Both the position numbers and the translations under genes were made by a program. The notes beneath the pieces are model-generated. The model saw only the letters and a list, made by a program, of their open reading frames with translations. It was not told the origin of the DNA and did not search any database. Of a DNA stretch of 12,479 bases, positions 1 through 12,479 are shown piece by piece. Source of the DNA: an uncultured Pseudoxanthomonas sp. (GTDB lineage Bacteria; Pseudomonadota; Gammaproteobacteria; Xanthomonadales; Xanthomonadaceae); assembly GCA_946886405.1 (NCBI GenBank), contig CAMPIO010000101.1:1-12479 (forward strand), written 5' to 3'. Every line of letters begins with the position of its first letter. Within the stretch, counting starts at the first letter, position 1.

Positions 1-194
1 CCGCTCCTACAAAGCTGTGGGAGATGCTCTGTAGGAGCGCCCTGGGGCGCGATGCTTTCCGGTCCGTGTTCGAAGAGCATCGCGGGCATGGCCCGCTCCT
101 ACAAAGCTGTGGGAGATGCTCTGTAGGAGCGCCCTGGGGCGCGATGCCTTCCGGTCCGTGTTCGAAGGGCATCGCGGGCATGGCCCGCTCCTAC
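1..194. repeat. Tandem array of paired REP palindromes (BIME-like), 92-bp period
   Basis: A 92-bp unit is present twice (11-102 and 103-194), with the last 10 bases of a further copy at 1-10. Each unit is a 20-bp spacer followed by two REP sequences in inverted orientation (31-102 and 123-194). These begin GTAGGAGCG and end CGCTCCTAC, and each REP half carries its own small internal hairpin. The two units differ at only two positions (56/148 T to C and 76/168 A to G), and these two positions pair with each other in the stem. GTAGGAGCG-type REPs are known in Pseudomonas and Xanthomonadaceae and are usually mobilised by RAYT transposases; no RAYT gene is in this window. The rightmost palindrome overlaps the coaE stop codon. 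Confidence 0.9.
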
Positions 195-811
195 AAGGCC
201 ACGGTGTTGGCCAGGGCGAGGTAGCGGTGGTGCAGGGCGTCGGCGGCGTGTCGCAGGTGCGCGATGTCGCGGTCGTTGACGACGATGTCGTCGGCCAAGG
301 CCAACCGGTCGGCGCGTGAGGCCTGGGCGGCCATCATGTTTTCGGCGAGGGCGGCGTCGATGCCGTCGCGTTGCATCAGGCGGGCTTTCTGCACGGCGGT
401 GGGGGTATCGACCACCAGGATGCGGTGCAGCCACGGATAACTGGCGCGGCCACCGCCTTCGGCGAGGAGGGGAATCACCGCGATGGCGTAGGGGCTGGTG
501 GCCTGCCGGCAGATCTCATGCAGGCGGACGCGGATGGCCGGGTGCAGGATGGCTTCCAGTGCACGGCGCTCCTCGTCGTTGCCGAAGACGCGCGCACGCA
601 GCGCGGCGCGGTCCAGCTCGCCATTCGCTTTCAACACGCCACGTCCGAACCGTTCCACCACCGTGGCCAGCGCCGGCGCGCCCGGCTGCACGATCTCGCG
701 CGCCAGCAGGTCGGCGTCGGCCACGACGATGCCGTGCGCGGCGAATGCCTTTTCCAGCGCGCTCTTGCCCGAGGCGATGCCGCCGGTCAGTCCGATGAAG
801 TAATCGCTCAT
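191..811 (-). CDS. coaE: Dephospho-CoA kinase
   Basis: This cytoplasmic enzyme phosphorylates the 3'-hydroxyl of the ribose in dephospho-CoA with ATP, the last step of coenzyme A synthesis. The 206-residue protein has the usual length of the family. The P-loop GGIASGKS is at residues 10-17, the substrate-side DAD motif at 32-34, a conserved LHPAIR at 89-94, the PLLAE lid/CoA-domain motif at 114-118, and the C-terminal nucleotide-binding stretch Q163-A-S-R...R169...ADD...N179. It is the last gene of the pilB-pilC-pilD run, 40 bp after pilD. Presence of coaE next to pilD is a common arrangement in gammaproteobacteria and probably reflects shared transcription, not a pilus role. The ATG has no clear Shine-Dalgarno, and a perfect 8-bp hairpin lies just upstream. 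The TAG stop is formed by the GTAG end of a REP palindrome. Confidence 0.96.
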   Translation of the reverse strand: MSDYFIGLTGGIASGKSALEKAFAAHGIVVADADLLAREIVQPGAPALATVVERFGRGVLKANGELDRAALRARVFGNDEERRALEAILHPAIRVRLHEICRQATSPYAIAVIPLLAEGGGRASYPWLHRILVVDTPTAVQKARLMQRDGIDAALAENMMAAQASRADRLALADDIVVNDRDIAHLRHAADALHHRYLALANTVAL

Positions 812-822
812 GCGCGGAGTAT

Positions 823-842
823 GGGGCGTGGCTGCACGCCCC
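823..842 (-). promoter_or_regulatory. Perfect 8-bp intercistronic hairpin before coaE
   Basis: Arms GGGGCGTG and CACGCCCC pair perfectly around a 4-base loop, between the pilD stop and the coaE start. There is no U-run after it, so it is a poor intrinsic terminator. It ends 11 bases before the coaE ATG, close enough to mask or space the ribosome binding region. A role in coupling, attenuation or mRNA processing is inference. Confidence 0.6.
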
Positions 843-851
843 GCAGCCGGG

Positions 852-1715
852 TCATTTCAGCCCGGAATAGCGCAGGTAGGCGTCGAGGATCTGCTGGCCC
901 CAGAAGAAGACAATCCAGCCCGCGATGGCCAGGTAGGGGCCGAACGGGATCGGCGTGGCGCGGTCGCGGCCCTTCATGGCCAGCCAGACCGAGCCGATCA
1001 CGGCACCCACCACCGACGACAGCAGGATGATCGGCAGCACGCCGCTCAGGCCCACCCACGCGCCCAGCGCCGCAAGCAGCTTGAAGTCGCCGCGCCCCAT
1101 GCCTTCCTTGCCGGTGATCTGCTTGAACAGCCACCACACCAGCCACAGCGAGACATAACCCGCAATCGCGCCCAGCAGGGCGGGCTTGGCGGGCATGTAG
1201 AGGTTGTCCAGGCTGCCGATCAAGCCCAGCCACATCAGCGGCAGCGTCAACTGGTCGGGCAGCAGCCGGGTGCGCAGGTCGATCCCGCTCAACGCCACCA
1301 GGTAGCAACTCAGCAGCGCGGCACCGAAGCCCTGCCAGCCGAAGCCGAAGCGCCACACCGAGGCCACCGCCAGCACGGCGGTCAGCAGTTCGACGATCGG
1401 GTATTGCGGCGAGATCGGCGCCTTGCAATGCCGGCACTTGCCGCGCAGGGCCAGCCAGCTGAATAGCGGGATGTTCTCGAACCAGGACAGCGGCGTCTTG
1501 CAGTGCGGGCAGTGCGAGCGCTCCACCACGATGCCGGGCGGAGGCGGGTCGTACAGCTCCGGCTCCTCCAGCACCTCGCGCGCGTCGCGCTTCCACTCCC
1601 ATTCCAGCCGCCGGGGCAGCCGCAGGATGACCACGTTGAGGAAGCTGCCCACCAGCAGGCCGAGGCCTGCCACCACCGGATACCCCAGTTCGGGGTGCTG
1701 ATCTAGGAATGCCAT
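852..1715 (-). CDS. pilD: Prepilin peptidase / N-methyltransferase PilD
   Basis: PilD is an inner-membrane aspartyl protease. It cleaves the leader of type IV prepilins (and type II secretion pseudopilins) after the conserved Gly and N-methylates the new N-terminal residue. The 287-residue protein shows the full bacterial layout: a first membrane helix with GSFLNVVILRLP at about 23-34, a cytoplasmic zinc domain with two CxxC pairs (Cys69/72 and Cys94/97) attributed to the methylase part, then a peptidase domain with the two catalytic aspartates (Asp146 in SGIDLRTRLLPD and Asp210 in the GRGDFK motif, the GxGD protease signature). Several further membrane segments follow to the C-terminus. The ATG starts 9 bases after the pilC stop, so translation is probably coupled. 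Its substrate PilA is in the same window. Confidence 0.97.
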   Translation of the reverse strand: MAFLDQHPELGYPVVAGLGLLVGSFLNVVILRLPRRLEWEWKRDAREVLEEPELYDPPPPGIVVERSHCPHCKTPLSWFENIPLFSWLALRGKCRHCKAPISPQYPIVELLTAVLAVASVWRFGFGWQGFGAALLSCYLVALSGIDLRTRLLPDQLTLPLMWLGLIGSLDNLYMPAKPALLGAIAGYVSLWLVWWLFKQITGKEGMGRGDFKLLAALGAWVGLSGVLPIILLSSVVGAVIGSVWLAMKGRDRATPIPFGPYLAIAGWIVFFWGQQILDAYLRYSGLK

Positions 1716-1724
1716 CGCGACAGT

Positions 1725-2981
1725 CTAGATGGTCGCGGCCAATTTGAAGATGGGCAGGTACATGCCGATGACCATGGCGCCGACCACGACACCGATGAAC
1801 ACCATGATGATGGGTTCCAGCAGGCTGGACAGCGCGTCGACCGCGTTGTTGACCTCCTGCTCGTAGTACTCGGCCACCTTGAACAGCATGGCGTCCAGTG
1901 CACCGGCTTCCTCACCGATGGCCGCCATCTGGATGACCATGTGCGGGAACAGGTTGACCTGCTTCATCGCCATGTTCACCGGGTAGCCCACCGCCACGTC
2001 GTCGCGGATGCGGAACACGGCCTTTTCGTACACGCTGTTGCCGGTTGCGCCCGCTACGTTGTCGAGCGCCTCCACCAGCGGCACACCGGCCTTGAACGTC
2101 ACCGCCAGCGTGCGCGCGAAGCGCGCGATCGCCGAGTTGTGCATGATCTCGCCCACCACGGGAACTTTCAGGATCGCGCGATCAAGCAAGTGCTTGAATG
2201 CGGGCGACCTCTTGAAAGCAATCATAAATGCGATGCCGCCGCCGATCGCGATAGCCAGGAACAGCCACCACCACGCCACCATGAAGCGCGACATGTTAAC
2301 GATGGCTTGGGTGAATGCGGGCAGGTCCGCACCAAAGCCCTGGAAGAAGCCTTCGAACTGCGGCACCACGTAGATCAGCAGGATCGAACTGACCAGCAGC
2401 GCCACGGCCATGACCATGGCTGGGTAGAAGAGCGCTTTTTTGATCTTCCCCTTCAGCGTTTCGATGTTTTCCTTGTAGCTGGCAATGGTGTCCAGCACGG
2501 TTTCCAGTACGCCAGCCCCTTCGCCTGCGCGCACCAGGTTGCGGTACAGCTCGTCGAACTGGCCGGGATGGCGGCTGATCGCCTCCGACAGCGACAGGCC
2601 GCTTTCAATGTCGAAGCGGATCTGCTGCACCATCTTGCTCATGCGCGGATTCTTCTGCCCGCCCTCGATGATCTCCAGCGAGGACACGATCGGCACACCC
2701 GACTTCATCATCGTCGCCATCTGGCGGCTGAAGAACGCGATCTCCTTGGCGGTGATGCGCTTGCCCGCTGCACCGAATAGCGGCTTCGGCTTTACTTTCA
2801 CCACGGACGGCGTGATGCCCTGCTTGCGCAGCTCGGCACGCAGGAAGTTCGCGTTCTTGGACGATTGCTCGCCCTTCATCTTCACGCCGCGCTTGTCGGT
2901 GCCTTCCCAGACGAACAGGTTCAGCGGATTCTCGCGGACGGGCGCGGGTGCTTTCTTGACGGCAGAACGGGTCACGGCCAT
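1725..2981 (-). CDS. pilC: Type IV pilus inner-membrane platform protein PilC
   Basis: PilC is the polytopic inner-membrane platform on which the PilB and PilT motors act to add or remove pilin subunits. I chose the ATG at 2981 (418 residues, protein begins MAVTRSAV). It has a clear AGGGG ribosome binding site at good spacing and gives the usual family start; an in-frame ATG at 3017 would add 12 residues that look unlike PilC. Two T2SSF domains are visible: the first around residues 80-200 (FFSRQMATMMKSGVPIVSSL), the second around 285-405 (FARTLAVTFKAGVPLVEAL). Membrane helices lie at about 186-206, 235-256 and 389-412, the usual three. It follows pilB after a 148-bp gap containing a hairpin and is 9 bp before pilD. 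No frameshift or missing region is seen. Confidence 0.96.
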   Translation of the reverse strand: MAVTRSAVKKAPAPVRENPLNLFVWEGTDKRGVKMKGEQSSKNANFLRAELRKQGITPSVVKVKPKPLFGAAGKRITAKEIAFFSRQMATMMKSGVPIVSSLEIIEGGQKNPRMSKMVQQIRFDIESGLSLSEAISRHPGQFDELYRNLVRAGEGAGVLETVLDTIASYKENIETLKGKIKKALFYPAMVMAVALLVSSILLIYVVPQFEGFFQGFGADLPAFTQAIVNMSRFMVAWWWLFLAIAIGGGIAFMIAFKRSPAFKHLLDRAILKVPVVGEIMHNSAIARFARTLAVTFKAGVPLVEALDNVAGATGNSVYEKAVFRIRDDVAVGYPVNMAMKQVNLFPHMVIQMAAIGEEAGALDAMLFKVAEYYEQEVNNAVDALSSLLEPIIMVFIGVVVGAMVIGMYLPIFKLAATI

Positions 2982-3059
2982 AGGTTTTCCCCTGTCCGGC
3001 TTTCCCCACCCGGACATTCAGACCCCATGGTAGCCGGTTATCGGCCGGAGGGAAGCACT

Positions 3060-3079
3060 CCGCCTGTGACGGCAGGCGG
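3060..3079 (-). promoter_or_regulatory. pilB-pilC intercistronic hairpin and short palindrome
   Basis: The 148-bp gap between pilB and pilC contains a 7-bp perfect stem (CCGCCTG / CAGGCGG, 6-base loop), and closer to pilB the perfect 10-bp palindrome GTGATATCAC at 3086-3095. In the direction of pilB-pilC transcription no T-run follows the stem, so I do not call it a terminator. I see no sigma-54 or convincing sigma-70 promoter for pilC here. The hairpin may set the pilB:pilC transcript ratio (inference). Confidence 0.45.
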
Positions 3080-3129
3080 GTTTCGGTGATATCACGCTGC
3101 TACTGCGGCAAGCGGGCGTCCCGCGTGCC

Positions 3130-4872
<1,743 letters not shown>

Positions 4873-5037
4873 GGGGCAGGATCCATGGGTTCAGTACAGG
4901 CGAGGGTACGCAGCAAATAGTGCGCCAATCGCACTTTACTACGTCGGCAAACGACGCTGCGCTATTTCACGTGTGCGCCGTCCATACGCTTCCACGGCAA
5001 CTGACGCGACACGTCACATGCTGCCGTGGTGTTCCTG
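4873..5037 (-). promoter_or_regulatory. Long structured leader of pilB
   Basis: The gap between pilB and the GT-C gene holds no gene that I can support. On the minus strand the predicted transcript from the sigma-54 promoter would start near 5028 and run about 155 nt to the pilB ATG. It opens with a nested stem-loop: an 8-bp perfect outer stem (CCACGGCA at 4992-4999 with TGCCGTGG at 5022-5029) and a 5-bp inner dyad (TGACG at 5002-5006, CGTCA at 5012-5016). I looked for a c-di-GMP riboswitch core here and did not find one. Confidence 0.5.
4992..5029 (-). promoter_or_regulatory. Nested stem-loop at predicted 5' end of the pilB transcript
   Basis: The outer 8-bp stem is perfect (CCACGGCA / TGCCGTGG). 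Within its loop is a second perfect inverted repeat, TGACG-N5-CGTCA (5002-5016). If the sigma-54 promoter assignment is right, the mRNA begins within a base or so of the stem. That is the typical place for a 5'-stabilising hairpin; alternatively the inner dyad is a protein binding site on DNA. Confidence 0.55.
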
Positions 5038-5038
5038 T

Positions 5039-5054
5039 TGCAATCGGCGTGCCA
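5039..5054 (-). promoter_or_regulatory. Sigma-54 (-24/-12) promoter for pilB
   Basis: On the minus strand the sequence reads TGGCACG-CCGA-TTGCA, a full match to the TGGCACG-N4-TTGCA consensus, with the required 10 bases between the GG and GC pairs. It begins only 3 bases after the TGA of the GT-C gene and points at pilB. The transcript start would be close to 5028. PilR, encoded in the same window, is a plausible activator; its upstream binding sites would lie inside the 3' end of the GT-C gene. Confidence 0.8.
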
Positions 5055-5057
5055 CGG

Positions 5058-7031
5058 TCACCAGGTGCGGCAGCGCCACGCAGGCGGCGCAATGCCCGCT
5101 GTGCTGCGGGTGCCGTCACGCAAGGCCTGGAACGTGGTCCACGCTTTGCCGACTTCGGCCAGTGCGCGCGTATCGCTGCATTTGGTGCGCGCTGCCACGT
5201 CGGCCAATGTGGCCTGAGCCTGTTCGAACCGGCGGGCGCGTGCCTGCAGCTGCGCAAGATAGAACCCCGCCCCGGCGTCGGCGGTCGGCTGCCATGCCAA
5301 CGTCGCCTGCGCTTCGGCCCGATCCCACTGCGCAGCATGCCCGTACAGCTTCGCCGCTTCGAAGCGCGACATCCACGTGGCCTGCTGGGCTTTGTGCTTC
5401 GTATCGCTTGCGTCCACCAAGCGAACGATGCTGTCAGCCACCAGGGCCGGCGTAAGGCCCGTGCACTGCGCAGGGGGATCGACGCGCGATGCCAGCGCAC
5501 GGAACGCATGCAATTCAATCAGGCTGATGCGCGGCAGGACTTCACCGGCAGCCGCCCGCAGCATGGCCGCGTCACCCGGCTCGCCGCGTGCGCACGCGGC
5601 GGACACGCGATACGCGCGCCCCAGAACGCGCCATTGCGGGACCTCGCTCTGCATCAATCGATCGGTGATGCCGTCGTGGACGTCTTTCATGCCCAGTTGT
5701 TGCGCCAGTGCGGCGCCATCCAACTGCGCGCGCAGTGATCCGGGGTGGTGTTGCAGACCCTGCGAAATGATCTGCGCGCGGTCCTGCCAGACCAGTGCGC
5801 GCCCCAGCGTGGCGATTGAATAGGCCAGCAGTAGCGCGCCGCAGGCCATCACGCCCAACTGTTTGGGAGAGAGGATGTTCGTGTGAACGCGTGCCAGCAG
5901 TGCGGCCATCCCGCTGACCAGCGCCCAGACGAAGCCCACGGCAGGCAAGTAGTTGCGGTGCTCGAATGACAGGTCCAGCGGCAGGAAGCTGGATTCGATG
6001 ATGTGCGCCACCAGAAAGAAGAACCATCCTGCAAACAGTCCAGGTGCCTTCTTGCGCGCAGCGATGGCGCCCGCGCTGATGGCGATCAGGCCGAGCAGGG
6101 CGTAAAGCGTGCTGGGGGGCGACAGCCACCCGCTCGACGCCATCACGTCGTCGGTGTACAGGCCCATCAAGGCGCCGCGAGGTAACAGAAGTTGCGCCAG
6201 ATAGCCCATCAGGACACGTGGCTGGGTCAGCAAACGCTCGCCCACGGTGAAGTCATAGTTGGCATAGCCCGCAAGCAGGCGGTCCGGTTGCAGCACCAGC
6301 ACGGCGAGAGCCACTACAGCGGGCACCACCAGGAACAGCCCGAAGAACGTTGCCAGCATGCGGCGCCCGGTGGTCGCGGTGCGGCCGGCGAAGTAGGCCA
6401 GTTCCAGCACCAGGCACAGTGCGGGGGCGATCACCGCGTGTTGCTTGCTGAAGAAGCCGGCGATCACCAGCAGCGGGAACAGCGCGAACAGCTGCCAGCC
6501 AGCCTTGCGGGTGTTGCCGGCGATCAAGGCTGCCCGGGCAGACAGGTAGACCCACACCGCAGCCAGTGCGAACAGCGTGCCGAGCTGCGCCATGCGCTGT
6601 ACGGCATACAGCACGGTGCTGGCGTTGAATGGATGCAGCAGCCACAGCGCCGCCACAGCCAGCGCGATGCCGTCGGACCGCTCTGCCAGCACGGCGTCCT
6701 GGCGCGTGGCCAGCCGCACCACCTGCCATATCAGCGCGCCGCACAGCAGGTGGACCAGCAGGTTGCCCAACTTGAAGGTAAAGGGGTCCATGCCTCCCAG
6801 GCCGGCGCTTGCCACGAAGGTGGCCATGGCCAGTGGGCGCGCCGTCAGCAGGGATTGCTGGCCAAAGACGACCGACTGCCAGGTGTCCTGACCAGCCAGC
6901 CAGCGCTGCAGCCCGGCAAAGTTTTCGAAGTCGTCCAGCACGAAAGGGCCTTTCAGCCCGGCCCAGTAGAGCGCCACGGTCAGCAGCATGGCGGCGATCA
7001 GCAGCAGGCGGGGTGAGAAGGTCGGGGTCAT
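5058..7031 (-). CDS. GT-C family membrane glycosyltransferase with C-terminal TPR-like domain, candidate pilin glycosyltransferase
   Basis: This 657-residue protein has about a dozen predicted membrane segments up to residue 415 and then a soluble, alanine-rich helical tail (about 420-640) that looks like degenerate TPRs. It carries signatures of GT-C enzymes of the TMTC/O-mannosyltransferase-like kind: the periplasmic-loop acidic pair in FVLDDFENF (Asp33-Asp34), ARPLAMATFV at 64-73, HPFNASTVLYAVQR at 133-146, FFSKQHAV at 193-200 and EHRNYLPAVGF at 357-367. Such enzymes use polyprenyl-phosphate sugars as donors on the periplasmic face. It lies directly after pilA on the same strand, separated by a terminator-like hairpin, with an AGGA ribosome site 8 bases before the ATG. 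By position it resembles TfpW of P. aeruginosa, which glycosylates pilin; that function here is inference. The alternative is an unrelated membrane glycosyltransferase. Confidence 0.75.
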   Translation of the reverse strand: MTPTFSPRLLLIAAMLLTVALYWAGLKGPFVLDDFENFAGLQRWLAGQDTWQSVVFGQQSLLTARPLAMATFVASAGLGGMDPFTFKLGNLLVHLLCGALIWQVVRLATRQDAVLAERSDGIALAVAALWLLHPFNASTVLYAVQRMAQLGTLFALAAVWVYLSARAALIAGNTRKAGWQLFALFPLLVIAGFFSKQHAVIAPALCLVLELAYFAGRTATTGRRMLATFFGLFLVVPAVVALAVLVLQPDRLLAGYANYDFTVGERLLTQPRVLMGYLAQLLLPRGALMGLYTDDVMASSGWLSPPSTLYALLGLIAISAGAIAARKKAPGLFAGWFFFLVAHIIESSFLPLDLSFEHRNYLPAVGFVWALVSGMAALLARVHTNILSPKQLGVMACGALLLAYSIATLGRALVWQDRAQIISQGLQHHPGSLRAQLDGAALAQQLGMKDVHDGITDRLMQSEVPQWRVLGRAYRVSAACARGEPGDAAMLRAAAGEVLPRISLIELHAFRALASRVDPPAQCTGLTPALVADSIVRLVDASDTKHKAQQATWMSRFEAAKLYGHAAQWDRAEAQATLAWQPTADAGAGFYLAQLQARARRFEQAQATLADVAARTKCSDTRALAEVGKAWTTFQALRDGTRSTAGIAPPAWRCRTW

Positions 7032-7064
7032 CCGGCGGTTCCTGGGCGAAGGACGGGGCGCTTC

Positions 7065-7093
7065 AACAAAAAACCCCGGCCGGAGCCGGGGTT
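7065..7093 (-). terminator. Intrinsic terminator after pilA
   Basis: On the minus strand a stem of CCCCGGC and GCCGGGG with a 4-base loop is followed by six T and then GTT, the classic rho-independent form. It sits 45 bases after the pilA stop and 34 bases before the GT-C gene. It would end most pilA transcripts, leaving the GT-C gene to read-through or its own weak promoter; I see no sigma-54 motif between the two genes. Confidence 0.85.
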
Positions 7094-7137
7094 CTGAAAC
7101 ATAGCCGCCAGACCGCGCGGCTACAAGTCGTTCGCTA

Positions 7138-7566
7138 TCAGTTACGGCAAGCCGCCGGGACCTGCGAGGACTTGGTGATCGTGGTGCTGCAGGTCCAGAT
7201 GATCTGGGCGTCGCCCGTCTGCCACTGCGGGGTGAAGACCAGCGTGCCGCTGGCAGCGTCGGACAGGCCGTCGTCAGCGCTCAGCGTGACAGTGATTTCG
7301 CCGTCAGCAATTGCGATGTTATCCACGTAGGTGGAAGCCGGGGAAACGTAGCCAGCGGCATCGTTATCAGCCGGCAGGGTGCCGGTGTCGAGCGTGGTTT
7401 CGGACACAGCCAGCTTGGCGGCAGCGGCCAGGTTGACGCCTTCCGAGACGCGGGCGCGGACGGTGTAGTCCTGGTAGGCCGGGATGGCGATGACCAGCAG
7501 GATGGCGATGATCGCGATCACGATCATCAGTTCGATCAGGGTGAAGCCCTGCATGTTCTTCTTCAT
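7138..7566 (-). CDS. pilA: Major type IV pilin PilA (prepilin)
   Basis: This is the structural subunit of the type IV pilus. The prepilin has 142 residues with a short basic leader MKKNMQG; PilD would cut after Gly7, leaving mature Phe1 with the invariant Glu5 (Glu12 of the precursor). The hydrophobic helix FTLIELMIVIAIIAILLVIA then runs into AIPAYQDYTVRARVSEG, the standard type IVa alpha-1 spine. The C-terminal half is beta-rich, with Cys126 and Cys140 positioned to form the disulfide-bonded D-region. Ser/Thr-rich patches at 56-63 and 127-134 are possible O-glycan acceptors. A strong AGGGGA ribosome site precedes the ATG. A sigma-54 promoter lies 105-121 bases upstream, and the leader contains a 9-bp hairpin. 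Only one pilin gene is present. Confidence 0.97.
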   Translation of the reverse strand: MKKNMQGFTLIELMIVIAIIAILLVIAIPAYQDYTVRARVSEGVNLAAAAKLAVSETTLDTGTLPADNDAAGYVSPASTYVDNIAIADGEITVTLSADDGLSDAASGTLVFTPQWQTGDAQIIWTCSTTITKSSQVPAACRN

Positions 7567-7598
7567 GGTATTTCCCCTTTCAGGATTGGCTTGATGGT

Positions 7599-7623
7599 TA
7601 GGGACACAAGCCCCGTGTCCCTA
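7599..7623 (-). promoter_or_regulatory. 9-bp stem-loop in the pilA leader
   Basis: TAGGGACAC and GTGTCCCTA pair perfectly around a 7-base loop (GGGGCTT on the pilA sense strand). It lies in the middle of the predicted 94-nt pilA leader, 32 bases before the ATG and outside the ribosome site. Stabilisation of the abundant pilin mRNA is the simplest explanation; an operator for a dimeric protein is the alternative. Confidence 0.65.
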
Positions 7624-7670
7624 CATGGACCGTGGGCGCCGCGAGTGAAACGACGCGTGCCAGGATGTAG

Positions 7671-7687
7671 AGCAGGATGCGTGCCAA
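7671..7687 (-). promoter_or_regulatory. Sigma-54 (-24/-12) promoter of pilA
   Basis: On the minus strand the site reads TTGGCACG-CATC-CTGCT. The GG and GC pairs are separated by exactly 10 bases and only one core base differs from YTGGCACG-N4-TTGCW. Predicted transcription starts near 7660, giving a leader of about 94 nt. PilR/RpoN control of pilA is well established in Pseudomonas, and pilR is present here. A second -24-like half (CTGGCACG at 7649-7656) lacks the -12 GC. Confidence 0.82.
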
Positions 7688-7877
7688 CTTCCGGTGCCCC
7701 GGCGATCCCCTCCCAAATCTTCCCCGGAGGAAACCCAGACGCCGAAGTCGGGCGGACTATCGCATCATTTTCCGGGGTTGTGTATCGGGAGTGCGCGGCA
7801 AACCGGGGTCAGATCACAGATTGGAGTCATGGTGCGAAACGGCTGCCAGAAGCGGAATCTGCCGCAATCTTGGTGAG

Positions 7878-7904
7878 GTGACGTGATGCGTCACATTGTG
7901 ACGC
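7878..7904. promoter_or_regulatory. Overlapping dyads upstream of the glycosylation cassette
   Basis: Two perfect inverted repeats share a half-site: GTGACG-TGATG-CGTCAC at 7878-7894 and GCGTCACA-T-TGTGACGC at 7888-7904. They lie about 104 bp before the first cassette gene and about 190 bp upstream of the pilA promoter. The symmetry and overlap suggest binding of one or two protein dimers. The spacing is not that of a CRP/Clp site (TGTGA-N6-TCACA), so the regulator is unknown. The TGACG-N5-CGTCA core recurs in the pilB leader. Confidence 0.55.
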
Positions 7905-7935
7905 TGGTGGTCGTGCGCCAAGCTGCTTCAAAGGA

Positions 7936-7964
7936 GCAACACGCTGGTTCACGCCTATTAGAAT
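7936..7964 (+). promoter_or_regulatory. Weak sigma-70-like promoter candidate for the cassette
   Basis: TAGAAT at 7959-7964 is a reasonable -10 box, with GCAACA (three of six matches to TTGACA) 17 bases upstream. Transcription would start near 7971, about 37 bases before the first ATG. No sigma-54 motif pointing to the plus strand was found in the gap. Confidence 0.25.
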
Positions 7965-8007
7965 GGTGTCGGATCCACCCACGTGTGGACCGTAGCCCGG
8001 GGAAAGC

Positions 8008-8388
8008 ATGCTGCGCGACATCCTTATGATCCTGTTCGTCACCTGTTCGACACTGGGCAGCCAGTTGCTGATCAAGCACGCGGTCACCCGGATCGGCATG
8101 CGCAGCCCGGTGCCGCACGGCCTGGACTGGATGGTCGCCGCATTGACGTCGCCCACCGTCATGCTGGCGGTCGCCGTGCAGGCCGTGGGGTTCGTGGTCT
8201 GGGTGGTCGTGGTCAGCCGGGTCAAGCTGGGGGTGGCGTTTGCGATTTCGGGTGCGTTCTTCTACCTGCTGATGGCGGCCGTCACCTGGATGTTGTACGG
8301 CGAGCGGCTGACGCTGGGTCAGTGGACCGGCATCGCGCTGATCTCCATCGGTGTGCTGATGGTGTCGATGCTGGGTCAGCCCGCATGA
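8008..8388 (+). CDS. Small four-helix EamA/SMR-type membrane protein, candidate polyprenyl-phosphate-sugar flippase
   Basis: This 126-residue inner-membrane protein has four hydrophobic helices at about 3-25, 46-69, 74-96 and 102-122, the size of one half of an EamA transporter or an SMR/ArnE-type subunit. The last helix is preceded by GERLTLGQWTGIALI, the pattern typical of the EamA/EmrE fold, and the first contains SQLLIKHAV, similar to the ArnE family. ArnE/ArnF and GtrA move undecaprenyl-phosphate sugars across the membrane, and the polyprenyl-sugar synthase-like gene two positions downstream makes that role more likely here than drug export. The ATG at 8008 has a GGGGA ribosome site. The stop overlaps the next start (ATGA). 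It is the first gene of a four-gene plus-strand operon. Substrate is not known. Confidence 0.7.
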   Translation: MLRDILMILFVTCSTLGSQLLIKHAVTRIGMRSPVPHGLDWMVAALTSPTVMLAVAVQAVGFVVWVVVVSRVKLGVAFAISGAFFYLLMAAVTWMLYGERLTLGQWTGIALISIGVLMVSMLGQPA

Positions 8389-9179
8389 AGACCGAGGTGG
8401 AGCACGCGTTCGTCGTGCCCGCCTACGGCCGGTCGACTCACCTGCGAGCCTGTCTGGGTTCCCTGCGATCACAATCGCGTGCCACGCCTGTTTTCATCTG
8501 CACGTCCACGCCGTCAGCGTGGTTGGCTGGCATTGCGGATGAGTTTGGTGCCCCGCTGATCGAGCACGGTCCCAGTGCGGGCATCGGTCATGACTGGAAC
8601 CACGCTATCGCAGCAACGCCTGCCCGTTGGATCACCTTGGCCCACCAGGATGATGTGTACCTGCCGCAGTTCGCAGAGGAGACGATGCGCTGCGTCCACC
8701 GCCACTCCCTTGCAGACTTGGTATTCACTGATTACGGCGAGCTCACTGACGATGGCGTGCGCGCATGGACGCCGATGCTGGCGATGAAGCGTTTGCTCGT
8801 GGAGGGGGCTTTCCTTGGGCGCGCTGCGGTGCAGACTCGGGGCGCCAAACGCCGTCTGCTGGCATGGGGATGTGCGATTCCCTGCCCAGCGGTGACCCTT
8901 CGCAGGCAGGTCGCACTGGGTCTGTTCAATGAGGGCCTGAAAGTCGATCTGGACTGGGACGCCTGGTTGCGCCTGGCCGACAGGCCCGGCGCTTTCGCGC
9001 GGGTGCGACACATGTGCATGCTTCACCGCATCCACGCGGCCAGCGAGACAAGCGGTGGGGTGCGGGCCGGCGTGCGTGCACGCGAGGACGTGGCCATGTT
9101 TGAGCGTCTCTGGCCGGCGCCGGTTGCCCGCATACTGGCGCGCCTCTACGCTCTGAGCTACGACACGGGGGAGCGATGA
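8385..9179 (+). CDS. GT2-like glycosyltransferase
   Basis: This 264-residue soluble protein has a GT-A type fold signature. It starts with a beta strand and VVPAYGR (10-16), followed by CLGSLRSQS. An acidic nucleotide-sugar/metal motif, HQDDVYLP, has Asp89-Asp90, and a later acidic cluster, VDLDWDAWLRLA (187-198), is in the place of the catalytic base region of GT2 enzymes. No membrane helix or signal peptide is seen, so it should act in the cytoplasm or at the membrane face. The ATG overlaps the preceding stop by four bases; the frame is open further upstream, but this start gives the normal GT2 N-terminus. Its stop overlaps the next ATG. It probably adds a sugar to a lipid-linked or otherwise activated glycan made by the cassette. 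Donor and acceptor cannot be read from the sequence. Confidence 0.75.
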   Translation: MKTEVEHAFVVPAYGRSTHLRACLGSLRSQSRATPVFICTSTPSAWLAGIADEFGAPLIEHGPSAGIGHDWNHAIAATPARWITLAHQDDVYLPQFAEETMRCVHRHSLADLVFTDYGELTDDGVRAWTPMLAMKRLLVEGAFLGRAAVQTRGAKRRLLAWGCAIPCPAVTLRRQVALGLFNEGLKVDLDWDAWLRLADRPGAFARVRHMCMLHRIHAASETSGGVRAGVRAREDVAMFERLWPAPVARILARLYALSYDTGER

Positions 9180-10255
9180 ACAAGCACGGCGATGCTGGCG
9201 CGACGGAGGTCGGGGTAAGGGACCGGGCGCCTGTTGCGCCAGTGTTTGCGGGTGCAACTGATCGTGAAGCGTCGGCGCCGCGCGTCGCGGTGGTGATCCC
9301 CTCCTATCGCGTGCGCGACCACGTGATGTCGGTCGTTGAGGCATTACCCGCTGCGGTCTGGCGTATTTATGTGGTCGACGACGCTTGTCCTGACGGTACG
9401 GCGGACTGGCTGCAGACGCGATGCGTTGACCCCCGCGTCAAGGTTCTCCGCAATGCCGTCAACCTGGGCGTCGGAGGGGCTGTCATGGCGGGTTATCGGC
9501 AAGCCATCGCCGATGGGGCCGACATCCTGGTGAAGATGGATGGCGATGGGCAGATGGATGCCGAAGCGCTGCCACGCCTTATCGGCCCTTTGTTGCGTGG
9601 GGAAGCGGACTACGCCAAGGGGAATCGCTTTTACGATCTTGCGCAGATAAGCCGCATGCCGCGCGCACGCATCGCCGGCAATGCGGTTCTGAGTTTCATG
9701 ACCAAGATTTCTTCGGGTTATTGGGACATCTTCGACCCCACCAATGGTTACACCGCGATCCATGCGCGGGTGGTGAGCATGCTTCCCCTGGGAAAGATCA
9801 GTCGCCGGTACTTCTTCGAAACGGACATGCTATTCCGACTCAACATCGCAAGAGCGGTCGTTGTCGACGTGCCGATGGACGCGCGCTACGGTGCCGAAAC
9901 CAGCAATCTCCGCATTGGCAAAGTGATTTTCGATTTCTCGCTGAAGCATGTTCGCAACACCTTCAAGCGACTGTTCTACAGCTATTTCCTCCGCGATCTG
10001 TCCCTCGCTTCACTCGAACTGCTGGCAGGCACGGTCTTCGTCGTGACAGGTTTCGTGTTGGGCGTGATGTTCTGGGTGCGCTCGCACTACACCGGTGTTC
10101 CCACGACAGCGGGTGGCGTAATGCTGGTGGCCCTGCAAATCATCGTAGGGATCCAGATGTTGCTCGGATTTCTGGCCTACGACATCGCCGCTGTTCCGCG
10201 GCGCCCGCTTCACAGGCTGCTTACGGATTGGCGAGCGGGAAGCCGAGAAGCGTGA
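9176..10255 (+). CDS. GtrB/DPM-synthase-like GT2 with two C-terminal membrane helices
   Basis: Enzymes of this family transfer a sugar from a nucleotide donor to undecaprenyl (or dolichyl) phosphate at the cytoplasmic side of the membrane. The protein has 359 residues. A 35-residue polar N-terminal extension is followed by VAVVIPSYRV (37-46), VDDACPDGT (67-75), the metal-binding KMDGDGQM with Asp122 and Asp124, GNRF at 149-152 and FDPTNGYTAIH (186-196), a pattern conserved in polyprenyl-phosphate mannose/glucose synthases. Two membrane helices at about 281-301 and 313-336 match the GtrB anchor. Start and stop overlap both neighbours by four bases, so it is translated as part of the operon. 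The likely product is an undecaprenyl-phosphate monosaccharide, the donor type that GT-C enzymes use. The sugar itself is not identifiable. Confidence 0.82.
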   Translation: MNKHGDAGATEVGVRDRAPVAPVFAGATDREASAPRVAVVIPSYRVRDHVMSVVEALPAAVWRIYVVDDACPDGTADWLQTRCVDPRVKVLRNAVNLGVGGAVMAGYRQAIADGADILVKMDGDGQMDAEALPRLIGPLLRGEADYAKGNRFYDLAQISRMPRARIAGNAVLSFMTKISSGYWDIFDPTNGYTAIHARVVSMLPLGKISRRYFFETDMLFRLNIARAVVVDVPMDARYGAETSNLRIGKVIFDFSLKHVRNTFKRLFYSYFLRDLSLASLELLAGTVFVVTGFVLGVMFWVRSHYTGVPTTAGGVMLVALQIIVGIQMLLGFLAYDIAAVPRRPLHRLLTDWRAGSREA

Positions 10256-10854
10256 GCGATCGGTTCGACGCCGGATACACCGCATACCAGTCGCAACGGG
10301 GCTGGTTCCGTCGTCAGGTCCGACGCGCGTACCTGGCTTCGGCGGCTAGCAAGCTGCGCGGCCCGACGCTTGACTTCGGCTGTGGTGTCGGAGACTTGCT
10401 GGCGCGACTACCCAATGGATCCATGGGTGTGGAATACAACGAAGCTAGCGTCGCGTTGTGCAAGACGCGCGGCTTGGACGTTATCCACTACGATGGGCTC
10501 GTGGATGACTGGGCGCTGTCCTTTTTGCCAGAGAAGCGCGCCTTCGAGTCGATGGTGATCAGCCATGTTCTGGAGCACCTGGACGAGCCGGTGCGAGTGC
10601 TGGGACGCCTGCTGGCAACTGCATGCAGGTTGGGCGTTGAACGCGTGCTGGTCATCGTGCCGGGACGTGCGGGATACCGGATCGATGCCACACACGTGAC
10701 GTTCGTGGATCAGCGGATGCTGGCCATGCCCGAATTGACCATCGGCACCGGGTTTCAACTGGCACATACGGCTTACTACCCGGGCGACTGGCGAAGCTTG
10801 GGGACGGTGTTTGCCCACCACGAACTGCAGGTGACGTACTCCCGTAGCACGTGA
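10252..10854 (+). CDS. SAM-dependent methyltransferase (class I)
   Basis: This is a 200-residue protein from a GTG start that overlaps the preceding stop (GTGA), chosen because the other cassette junctions have the same form. SAM-binding motif I is LDFGCGVGDLLARLP at about 40-54, an acidic ribose-binding position follows at GVEYNE (59-64), and the post-II motif SHVLEHLDEP is at 104-113, a signature of the Methyltransf_11/23 group often seen in glycan clusters. No membrane segment is present. In this context it may O-methylate a sugar or cap a glycan, but the substrate is unknown. The gene ends 18 bases from the convergent pilR stop, with no terminator visible between them. Confidence 0.8.
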   Translation: MSDRFDAGYTAYQSQRGWFRRQVRRAYLASAASKLRGPTLDFGCGVGDLLARLPNGSMGVEYNEASVALCKTRGLDVIHYDGLVDDWALSFLPEKRAFESMVISHVLEHLDEPVRVLGRLLATACRLGVERVLVIVPGRAGYRIDATHVTFVDQRMLAMPELTIGTGFQLAHTAYYPGDWRSLGTVFAHHELQVTYSRST

Positions 10855-10872
10855 AGCGCTGGGGCCTGCCGC

Positions 10873-12276
10873 CTACTCCATCCCCAGCTTCTTCAGCTTG
10901 TAGCGCAGTGCCCGGAAGGTGATGCCCAACTGGGCTGCGGCCTTGGTCTTGTTCCAGCGGTTCTCTTCCAGCGCTTTCTGGATGGCGGCACGTTCCAGCT
11001 GCTCGATGTAGTCGGGCAGGGCGCCGCCGGCGGCCGGGTCCACGTCCACGGCGCCGGGCGCATCGCCGATCACCTCGCCGGGACTGAACTCGCCACCGAA
11101 CTTTCTGCCGGCGGGCGCCTGCGGCAGGTACAGGTCGTCGATCTCGATGCTGTGGCCCTCGGACATGGCCAGCGCACGTTCCAGGATGTTCTCCAGCTCG
11201 CGGACGTTGCCGGGGAACGGGTAGCGGCCGAGGGTTTCCATCGCCTCCGGTGACACCGACGGCGCCATGCGTCCGTGCTGGGCGGCCAGCCGGTCGAGGA
11301 TGGCGCTGGTCAGCTGCGACAGGTCGCCCGTGCGTTCGCGCAGCGGCGGCACGCGCAGCTCGATGACGTTGATGCGGTAGTACAGGTCATGACGGAAGCG
11401 GCCATCGGCGGCCAGTTCGCCCAGGTCCTTGTGGGTGGCCGACAGGATGCGTACGTCCACCAGCACCTCACCCGACGCACCGACCGGGCGCACGGCTTTC
11501 TCCTGGATGGCGCGCAGCAGCTTCACCTGCATCGGCAGCGGCAGCTCGGCCACTTCGTCGAGGAACAGCGTGCCGCCGTTGGCCGCCTGGAACAGGCCCT
11601 GCTTGTCGGCATGGGCGCCGGTGAAGCTGCCCTTCTTGTGGCCGAAGAACTCGCTTTCCATCAGCTCGGCCGGAATGGCGCCGCAGTTGACGGGAATGAA
11701 GGGGCCGGACGCGCGCGCGCCCTGTTCGTGGATGGTGCGGGCCACCAGCTCCTTGCCCGTGCCCGACTCGCCCATGATGTAGACCGGCGCCTGGCTGCGG
11801 GCGACCTTGCCGATGGTCTCGCGCAGTCCATCCATCGCAGCCGAACTGCCGAGCAGGCGGCTGGCCTGTTCCGGCGGCGGCGGCGGCGGCGGGGCGCGTT
11901 CGCTGTTGTTCAATTCCAGCGCGTGCTTGACCAGCCCGCGCAGCACGGTCAGGTCGACCGGCTTGCTGACGAAGTCGAAGGCGCCGGCCTTCAGCGCTTC
12001 CACCGCCAGTTCGATGTTGCCGAACGCGGTAATCATGGCGACCGGCGTATCGGGATAGTGACGCGAGATCTCGCCGACCAGGTCGATGCCGTTGCCGTCC
12101 GGCAGGCGCATGTCGGTGAAACACAGGTCGTAGGTGTTGCGGCCCAGCAGTTCGCGGGCCTCGCCGAGATTGGCGGCGGTATCGATGCGCAGGCCCATGC
12201 GGCCCAGCGTCAGTGTCAGCAGTTCTCGGATGTCGCGTTCGTCGTCGACGATCAGGGCGCTACGGCTTTGATTCAT
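10873..12276 (-). CDS. pilR: Sigma-54-dependent response regulator PilR (NtrC family)
   Basis: PilR is a DNA-binding activator which, when phosphorylated by PilS, opens RpoN promoters, above all pilA. The 467-residue protein has three intact domains. The receiver spans about 1-120, with Asp11-Asp12, phospho-acceptor Asp55 and Lys105. The AAA+ domain spans about 140-370, with Walker A GESGTGKE (169-176), the sigma-54 contacting loop GSFTGA (216-221), Walker B GGTLFLDE (234-241) and the GNVRELEN region (356-363). The Fis-type helix-turn-helix is at about 425-463 (NKTKAAAQLGITFRALRYKL). A seven-proline linker (129-135) joins receiver and AAA+. The ATG has a strong GAGGGGGA ribosome site. No pilS directly precedes it, although the two genes are often adjacent. 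Both sigma-54 promoters found here are natural targets. Confidence 0.95.
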   Translation of the reverse strand: MNQSRSALIVDDERDIRELLTLTLGRMGLRIDTAANLGEARELLGRNTYDLCFTDMRLPDGNGIDLVGEISRHYPDTPVAMITAFGNIELAVEALKAGAFDFVSKPVDLTVLRGLVKHALELNNSERAPPPPPPPEQASRLLGSSAAMDGLRETIGKVARSQAPVYIMGESGTGKELVARTIHEQGARASGPFIPVNCGAIPAELMESEFFGHKKGSFTGAHADKQGLFQAANGGTLFLDEVAELPLPMQVKLLRAIQEKAVRPVGASGEVLVDVRILSATHKDLGELAADGRFRHDLYYRINVIELRVPPLRERTGDLSQLTSAILDRLAAQHGRMAPSVSPEAMETLGRYPFPGNVRELENILERALAMSEGHSIEIDDLYLPQAPAGRKFGGEFSPGEVIGDAPGAVDVDPAAGGALPDYIEQLERAAIQKALEENRWNKTKAAAQLGITFRALRYKLKKLGME

Positions 12277-12377
12277 GCATTCCCCCTCATGCCCCTGTGC
12301 CGGCAGTGTACCGAGTGAATGTTAAACATGGTAGGCGAGGCCCCTACAGGATGCCCGCCACAACAGAGTTTGTCTTT
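12277..12377. other. Upstream region of pilR, no gene seen
   Basis: This roughly 100-bp stretch holds the pilR ribosome site, a short perfect palindrome ATGTT-A-AACAT (12318-12328), and no recognisable sigma-54 promoter. No reading frame resembling the end of pilS is present. I could not assign a promoter for pilR with confidence. Confidence 0.5.
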
Positions 12378-12479
12378 GTAGGAGCGGGGCCAGCCCCCCC
12401 GGGGTTTTGTTTGTTGGGGCCACCGGGGAAAACAAACGCGGGGGGGGCCCCGCCGACAAAAACGGCGTTTTGGCGGGTT
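12378..12479. repeat. REP-like palindrome followed by degenerate contig-end sequence
   Basis: GTAGGAGCG at 12378-12386 begins a REP of the same family as at the left end, with a small GGGGC/GCCCC hairpin. After about 12400 the sequence turns into long runs of one base (seven C, eight G, and several runs of four or five T or A), unlike anything else in the window. I read this as a poor-quality assembly end. Confidence 0.7.

Follow-up and report, generated by a model that had tools for sequence, protein, structure and literature searches.

Does a membrane glycosyltransferase encoded behind a pilin gene work in one pathway with a glycan operon that diverges from that gene? The question is raised by a type IV pilus cluster of an uncultured Pseudoxanthomonas sp. 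(assembly GCA_946886405.1, contig CAMPIO010000101.1, positions 1 to 12,479; this whole stretch of 12,479 nucleotides is hereafter the window), in which the genes follow the order coaE, pilD, pilC, pilB (- strand), a glycosyltransferase class C (GT-C) gene and pilA (- strand), a divergent operon (+ strand), and pilR (- strand). The gene positions of a preliminary description, which placed the GT-C gene behind pilA and a four-gene operon diverging on the + strand, were all confirmed. We consider it probable (roughly 0.7) that the GT-C enzyme and the operon belong to one pathway, encoded within the pil cluster, for the O-glycosylation of pilin.

The GT-C family and its pilin neighbors

The GT-C gene (5058..7031, - strand; 657 aa) encodes a candidate pilin glycosyltransferase, a membrane enzyme with a C-terminal tetratricopeptide repeat (TPR)-like tail, and lies behind pilA (7138..7566, - strand), whose type IV pilin product matches the Pfam models PF00114 (Pilin) and PF07963 (N_methyl) above cut-off. 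The GT-C was matched (E ≤ 1e-30, up to 5 candidates scored per genome) in 103 of the 217 genomes sampled from the family of P. wuyuanensis (G001), and a pilin-type gene, recognized by its N-terminal motif, lies within 800 bp upstream and on the same strand of at least 1 GT-C in 101 of these 103 loci (within 300 bp in 97); in the two exceptions, the contig ends less than 450 bp from the GT-C gene. At the level of the class, 81 of 274 gammaproteobacterial genomes yielded matches (up to 4 candidates scored per genome), and among 30 of the 81 whose loci were read with flanks of approximately 1.5 kb, a pilin lies within 800 bp in 19, the stretch ends near the GT-C gene in 7, and no pilin was seen in 4. 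A pilin was likewise evident in 56 of 78 named GT-C loci, with 6 stretches ending near the GT-C gene and 16 giving no match to the motif, a search that misses some pilins (L021 has one by tblastn). The preliminary description had regarded a GT-C with a TPR tail as unusual beside pilA; the adjoining pilins of 101 family loci and the 81 matching gammaproteobacterial genomes rule out such rarity. The nearest named relatives of the window GT-C are from Pseudoxanthomonas and are 75–77% identical to it.

Pilin and GT-C genes are separated in the window by a terminator-like hairpin with a T-run (7072..7087, - strand), and a terminator-like hairpin occupies the same interval in 56 of the 99 loci (out of 103) covered by the count, versus 2.1 ± 1.4 in shuffles (20 rounds). 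The pair also co-varies: given PilB, GT-C identity tracks the variable part of the adjacent pilin with a partial rho of 0.43, which is 0.52 for the TPR tail and 0.40 for the catalytic part (Mantel test, 0 of 500 both for the full-length GT-C and for its tail), as calculated for 36 of 101 rows, namely the window and the 35 loci whose stretch also includes PilB. Pilin and PilB identities are themselves hardly correlated (0.06). Such co-variation fits a putative recognition of the pilin by the GT-C tail. In 35 of the 103 loci, the GT-C search gave two or three matches, for the most part tandem copies, which perhaps serve one pilin or one sugar each. At least one such locus (L125) seems to contain a single gene broken into two parts.

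The predicted fold of the enzyme is STT3/PMT/ArnT-like over approximately residues 1–440, and its structure model aligns with STT3, Pmt4, ArnT, and PglB in VIA-align, with AftD and AftB also among the aligned rows. The fold call rests on VIA-align because Foldseek, although placing PglB and ArnT among its best rows, returned none at E ≤ 0.001; searching PDB profiles with the alignment of the family gave nothing useful. Two elements are invariant in 35 aligned sequences: the candidate catalytic acids Asp33-Asp34 (codons 6930..6935, - strand), directly after the first predicted membrane helix (residues 7–27 in the model), and residues E357–P363 of an FEHRNYLP motif (5943..5966, - strand). Acidic residues of this kind have a catalytic role in PMT and ArnT. 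The TPR-like tail (approximately residues 440–657; 5058..5714, - strand) is predicted to be periplasmic, and TPR_19 is matched by 20 of the 35 family members (Pfam, E ≤ 0.1; 16 Pfam families matched in all). Absent from these 16 families is PF08409, which we take to be the TMTC/DUF1736 domain; membership of the TMTC family by sequence is thereby ruled out, and the label “TMTC-like” in the preliminary description concerns architecture and not sequence kinship. The same scan of 35 members gave no match to an O-antigen-ligase (Wzy_C/WaaL-like) domain, which rules out a Wzy_C-type oligosaccharyltransferase. No Pfam family matched the window GT-C itself, its family has no entry in Pfam or NCBIfam, and we found no account of it in the open-licence literature (subscription papers lay outside that search).

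The usual donor synthase and the divergent cassette

Several GT-C loci encode a DPM/AglJ-like synthase of glycosyltransferase family 2 (GT2; 284 aa in L103), with AglJ as the best NCBIfam model (E 4.9e-31, below cut-off) and with ArnC and dolichol monophosphate mannose synthase as PDB relatives. A copy with at least 49% identity is present in 46 of the 78 named GT-C loci, and in many of these it follows the GT-C gene at a distance of tens to hundreds of bases; the count missed the synthase of G003, which has a short locus (L082) and was recovered by the whole-genome search. With a single probe taken from a GT-C locus, that search found the synthase in 95 of 217 genomes: both genes are present in 93, GT-C only in 10, the synthase only in 2 (G019 and G028), and neither in 112 (phi 0.89, Fisher 7e-47, kinship ignored). 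In 92 of the 93 genomes, no more than 25 kb separates the synthase from the GT-C gene, and in G053 the two are on different contigs. Glycan genes were likewise detected near 74 of 103 GT-C genes versus 0 of 31 loci without GT-C, but both the eleven probes, drawn from the window and GT-C loci, and the nonrandom set of 31 loci are biased, so that we place more weight on the whole-genome search. The co-occurrence counts indicate that the GT-C goes with a lipid-linked-sugar synthase. On a PilB tree of 37 rows with GT-C and 31 without, the latter mostly from the genomes nearest to the window by PilB, GT-C and the synthase alone change together in 5.4 of 7 independent pairs on average and never in opposite directions (median p 0.06). 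Two relatives of the window (L103:4680-11974 and L108:5716-12264) carry, between pilB and the GT-C gene, the DPM/AglJ-like synthase together with glycosyltransferase-like genes, a polysaccharide-transporter-like protein (PF01943 in L103), and methyltransferases.

The window and seven named loci instead contain a four-gene or three-gene operon (hereafter the cassette), with the DPM/AglJ-like synthase absent from the stretch examined. In the window, the operon starts with an SMR/EamA-like small membrane protein, a candidate flippase (8008..8388, + strand; 126 aa), for which all matches are weak (Pfam EamA, E 7.6e-6, 26.7 bits versus a cut-off of 28.2; the NCBIfam models ArnF and ArnE, 25.1 bits versus 99 and 22.3 versus 92) and no GtrA model of Pfam or NCBIfam was matched. 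It is followed by a soluble GT2-type glycosyltransferase of the GT-A fold (8385..9179, + strand; 264 aa; PF00535, 22.6 bits versus a cut-off of 23.3) and a GtrB/DPM/ArnC-like polyprenyl-phosphate-sugar synthase (9176..10255, + strand; 359 aa), which matches Pfam Glycos_transf_2 above cut-off and has AglJ as its best NCBIfam match, below cut-off, and dolichol monophosphate mannose synthase 5mlz as its best PDB match (E 4e-18). The last gene encodes a MetW-like S-adenosylmethionine-dependent methyltransferase (10252..10854, + strand) with an LDFGCGVG motif, matching MetW above cut-off in a scan from position 10225. Successive genes overlap by 4 bases (ATGA, ATGA, and GTGA), and we therefore read the four as one operon.

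The cassette GT2 was matched in 15 of the 217 genomes, 9 of them at 55% identity or more, and an SMR gene lies beside it in 14 of the 15. Eight of the nine close copies adjoin a pilin gene (G001, G002, G020, G066, G067, G068, G163, and G194); the ninth, in G113, has no GT-C match in its genome and carries a DUF2142 protein, described in Pfam as a predicted membrane protein, between SMR and GT2. Only 5 of the 8 pilin-side copies include a relative of the window methyltransferase, so that this component is optional; in G067, the methyltransferase at that position is unrelated to it. Among the genomes with GT-C, the cassette GT2 occurs in 8 of the 10 lacking the synthase (G169 included) versus 1 of the 93 possessing it (Fisher 1.7e-9, kinship ignored), and the remaining two are G125, with a 30% identical relative of the synthase beside the GT-C gene, and G204, where the contig ends at 3.3 kb. 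The cassette thus probably replaces the usual donor synthase, which favors a single pathway for pilin glycosylation. On the PilB tree, 7 of the 7 independent pairs show GT-C and “synthase or cassette” changing together (p = 0.016). Of the 9 cassette-side GT-Cs, including that of the window, 8 fall into one supported group of 24 rows of a FastTree tree, on which the cassette label needs 4 changes versus 8.8 in shuffles.

Compared with the window, the cassette proteins of the pilin-side loci are 56–58% (GT2), 66–76% (GtrB-like), and 59–77% (SMR) identical, whereas GT-C and PilA of the same loci are 33–48% and 37–58% identical, some over part of their length; the GT-C/pilin pair accordingly represents the fast part of the system and the donor cassette the slow part. 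The longest contig of cluster P0009 and that of P0121 are both given as 4843 bases; if the two are one contig, GT2 is 92% but GT-C only 66% identical to the window, as though the GT-C part had been exchanged.

Cassette parts are also found in other settings (neighborhoods of the looser GT2 copies are described for G169, G038, G152, and G135, not for G039 and G181). Five cassette-like copies lie outside pil clusters, and for three of them the same stretch also encodes a DUF2142 (G113 and G038) or DUF7657 (G169) protein, which adjoins GT2 in G169 and lies approximately 3.4 kb off in G038; these proteins could be the dedicated transferases of those copies. The cassette GT2 of G135 is in a pil cluster without the GT-C, and G152 (L097:5083-10053) combines, in order, a pilin, a GT87-like protein, a GT2, a cassette-type GT2, an SMR protein, and then pilB, that is, cassette parts with another type of GT-C. 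Among the remaining features of the window, sigma-54 promoter-like sites lie 105 bp ahead of pilA (7671..7686, - strand; 1 mismatch) and between the GT-C gene and pilB (5039..5054, - strand; 0 mismatches), each weak on its own; the pattern matches 66 times in the window versus 69.8 expected, which is not above chance, and only the best single sites are therefore named.

Proposed pathway and alternative explanations

From what is observed, namely the gene content, the predicted fold, the pilin linkage, the co-occurrence with a donor synthase, and the presence of the cassette mostly where that synthase is missing, we infer the enzyme activity, substrate, sugar, flipping, and methylation as follows. 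In the cytoplasm, the GtrB-like enzyme would charge polyprenyl phosphate with a sugar, and GT2 would attach a second sugar, with the methyltransferase possibly methylating the glycan. The SMR protein would then flip the lipid-linked glycan to the periplasmic face, where the GT-C, whose TPR-like tail would also be periplasmic, would recognize PilA and transfer the glycan to serine or threonine residues of the pilin before assembly. As judged from sequence, the GT-C family is mostly paired with the DPM/AglJ-like synthase, and the SMR-GT2-GtrB-methyltransferase operon seems to stand in for it here, so that the sugar has probably changed. The preliminary description had already joined the five genes into one PilA-centered pathway; this proposal holds at the level of gene association, through the pilin linkage, the co-variation given PilB, and the operon occurring mainly where the usual synthase is missing, and the last of these gives it a better reason than it had before.

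Several observations weigh against the single pathway. The GT-C/pilin co-variation may simply reflect joint inheritance of neighboring genes. Pilins beside GT-C are only slightly richer in serine and threonine than other pilins (22.3%, n = 101, versus 19.3%, n = 39; p = 0.004), and we set this small difference aside as proof of a pilin acceptor. The swap itself is in the expected direction in 4 of 4 pairs on the PilB tree, too few for a firm result (p = 0.125), and the GT-C tree offers 2 usable pairs, 1 as expected and 1 not differing; G067, which carries both cassette and synthase, is absent from the PilB tree, its PilB being outside the stretch. The GT2 of G169 is 49% identical and lies approximately 105 kb from the GT-C gene, and in G194 the cassette with the pilin and the GT-C gene are at the ends of two contigs, their linkage being deduced. 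Co-occurrence of cassette and GT-C, the check put forward in the preliminary description, is borne out in part: the two are correlated at the locus, and GT-C is present in 8 of the 9 genomes with GT2 at 55% identity or more (p = 0.012), but across genomes the relationship is lopsided, as GT-C occurs in 9 of all 15 GT2 genomes versus 94 of the 202 others (one-sided Fisher p = 0.23), leaving 94 of 103 GT-C genomes without a cassette GT2 match and 6 of 15 GT2 genomes without a GT-C match.

These 94 genomes agree with an explanation in which the GT-C glycosylates PilA using a donor made elsewhere and the divergent operon, sharing only the intergenic region, serves another surface glycan, as do the double equipment of G067 and the location of 5 of 15 cassette relatives away from pil clusters, where 3 are accompanied by DUF2142 or DUF7657 proteins. 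We nevertheless regard it as unlikely, given that 8 of the 9 close cassette copies adjoin a pilin gene and that the synthase, present in 93 of 103 GT-C genomes, is missing from 7 of these 8 genomes. That the GT-C and the operon modify lipopolysaccharide or another envelope glycan, with the position in the pil cluster reflecting shared regulation only, is less probable still: enzymes of the GT-C fold do act on lipids and polysaccharides as well (ArnT, AftD, and AftB among the VIA-align rows), but in 101 of 103 loci a pilin gene lies immediately upstream of the GT-C gene, and the GT-C diverges in step with the pilin and not with the genome alone. According to passages of PMC11841053, P. aeruginosa has accessory proteins without known glycosyltransferase activity at this very place, so the GT-C might be a pilin accessory or assembly protein with a TfpY-like role and no transferase activity; this would leave the invariant DD and EHRNYLP motifs, the predicted GT-C fold, and the co-occurrence with a lipid-sugar synthase without a reason, and we consider it very improbable.

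The window may be one version of a pilin-glycosylation platform widespread among Gammaproteobacteria and unnamed in the family libraries searched, a tentative extension that we hold at somewhat less than even odds. A TPR-tailed GT-C would be matched to its own pilin by the tail and accept any polyprenyl-phosphate glycan made at the locus, and donor cassettes would be exchanged in the manner of serotype cassettes, with pilus phages as the probable selective pressure. Equally tentatively, these cassettes would comprise the single DPM/AglJ-like synthase, the synthase with transporter-like and GT4-like genes, and the SMR-GT2-GtrB-methyltransferase operon. In nearly all family loci, the place beside the pilin is taken by a GT-C family that neither Pfam nor NCBIfam lists and that co-occurs with a partner synthase. 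Were its proposed role true, many type IV pili now thought to be bare would be sugar-coated, with effects on attachment, on twitching, and on the binding of phages, and the exchange of donor cassettes would provide a natural experiment on the donor tolerance of a pilin glycosyltransferase. Passages of PMC12645811 describe pilin glycosylation by an enzyme encoded beside the pilin gene in a few genera.

The place behind the pilin is also occupied in 8 of 29 pil loci without GT-C, by proteins with several predicted membrane helices (L104:14413-16218, L105:10863-12872, L241:478-1737, L243:3625-5340, L247:4204-6186, L250:4398-7520, L256:15194-16765, and L258:7162-9114). Two contain a sulfatase domain, others ICMT, spermine-synthase, or DCC1-like domains, and three have no Pfam match; this position is possibly a hotspot of enzymes that modify pilins.

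Comparison with known systems

The eukaryotic TMTC enzymes have a TPR tail, and the window GT-C resembles the TMTC/PMT O-mannosyltransferases in the common GT-C fold (Pmt4 among the best VIA-align rows) and, by prediction and by Pfam TPR matches in its relatives, in the C-terminal TPRs of TMTC, but differs in lacking PF08409 across the 35 members. The gtrABC modules of O-antigen glucosylation consist of a GtrB synthase, a small membrane protein, and a GT-C enzyme, and all three kinds of component have counterparts here. The window nonetheless has an SMR/EamA protein for GtrA, a GT-C gene outside the operon, on the opposite strand behind pilA, and an additional GT2 and methyltransferase, and is thus, strictly speaking, no gtrABC module.

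TfpW, which adds D-arabinofuranose to the pilin in P. aeruginosa group IV, reportedly belongs to the GT-C class. Its gene, like the GT-C gene of the window, is directly downstream of the pilin gene, and a terminator between pilin and accessory gene is a further likeness, shared by the window and the 56 related loci noted above; for P. aeruginosa, passages of PMC11841053 describe a pilin accessory gene next to pilA and a terminator after the pilin gene. Likened by gene arrangement and not by sequence, the window system may work as TfpW does, with a pilin-side enzyme, a terminator, and a lipid-linked donor, the differences being the TPR-like tail and the donor cassette with SMR, GT2, GtrB-like, and methyltransferase genes. 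Passages of PMC12645811 report periplasmic transfer to pilins or pilin-like proteins by TfpO/PilO, TfpM, PglS, and PglL, a likeness to the pathway proposed here, as well as linkage of the TfpO, TfpM, and PglS genes to the gene of their substrate. Those enzymes carry an O-antigen-ligase domain, unlike the 35 scanned members of the GT-C family, and by its domain content the window GT-C is not a PglL/TfpO-type enzyme. The system at other gammaproteobacterial pil loci, in which the GT-C is accompanied by the DPM/AglJ-like synthase, uses the same GT-C family but has that synthase in place of the SMR-GT2-GtrB(-methyltransferase) operon.

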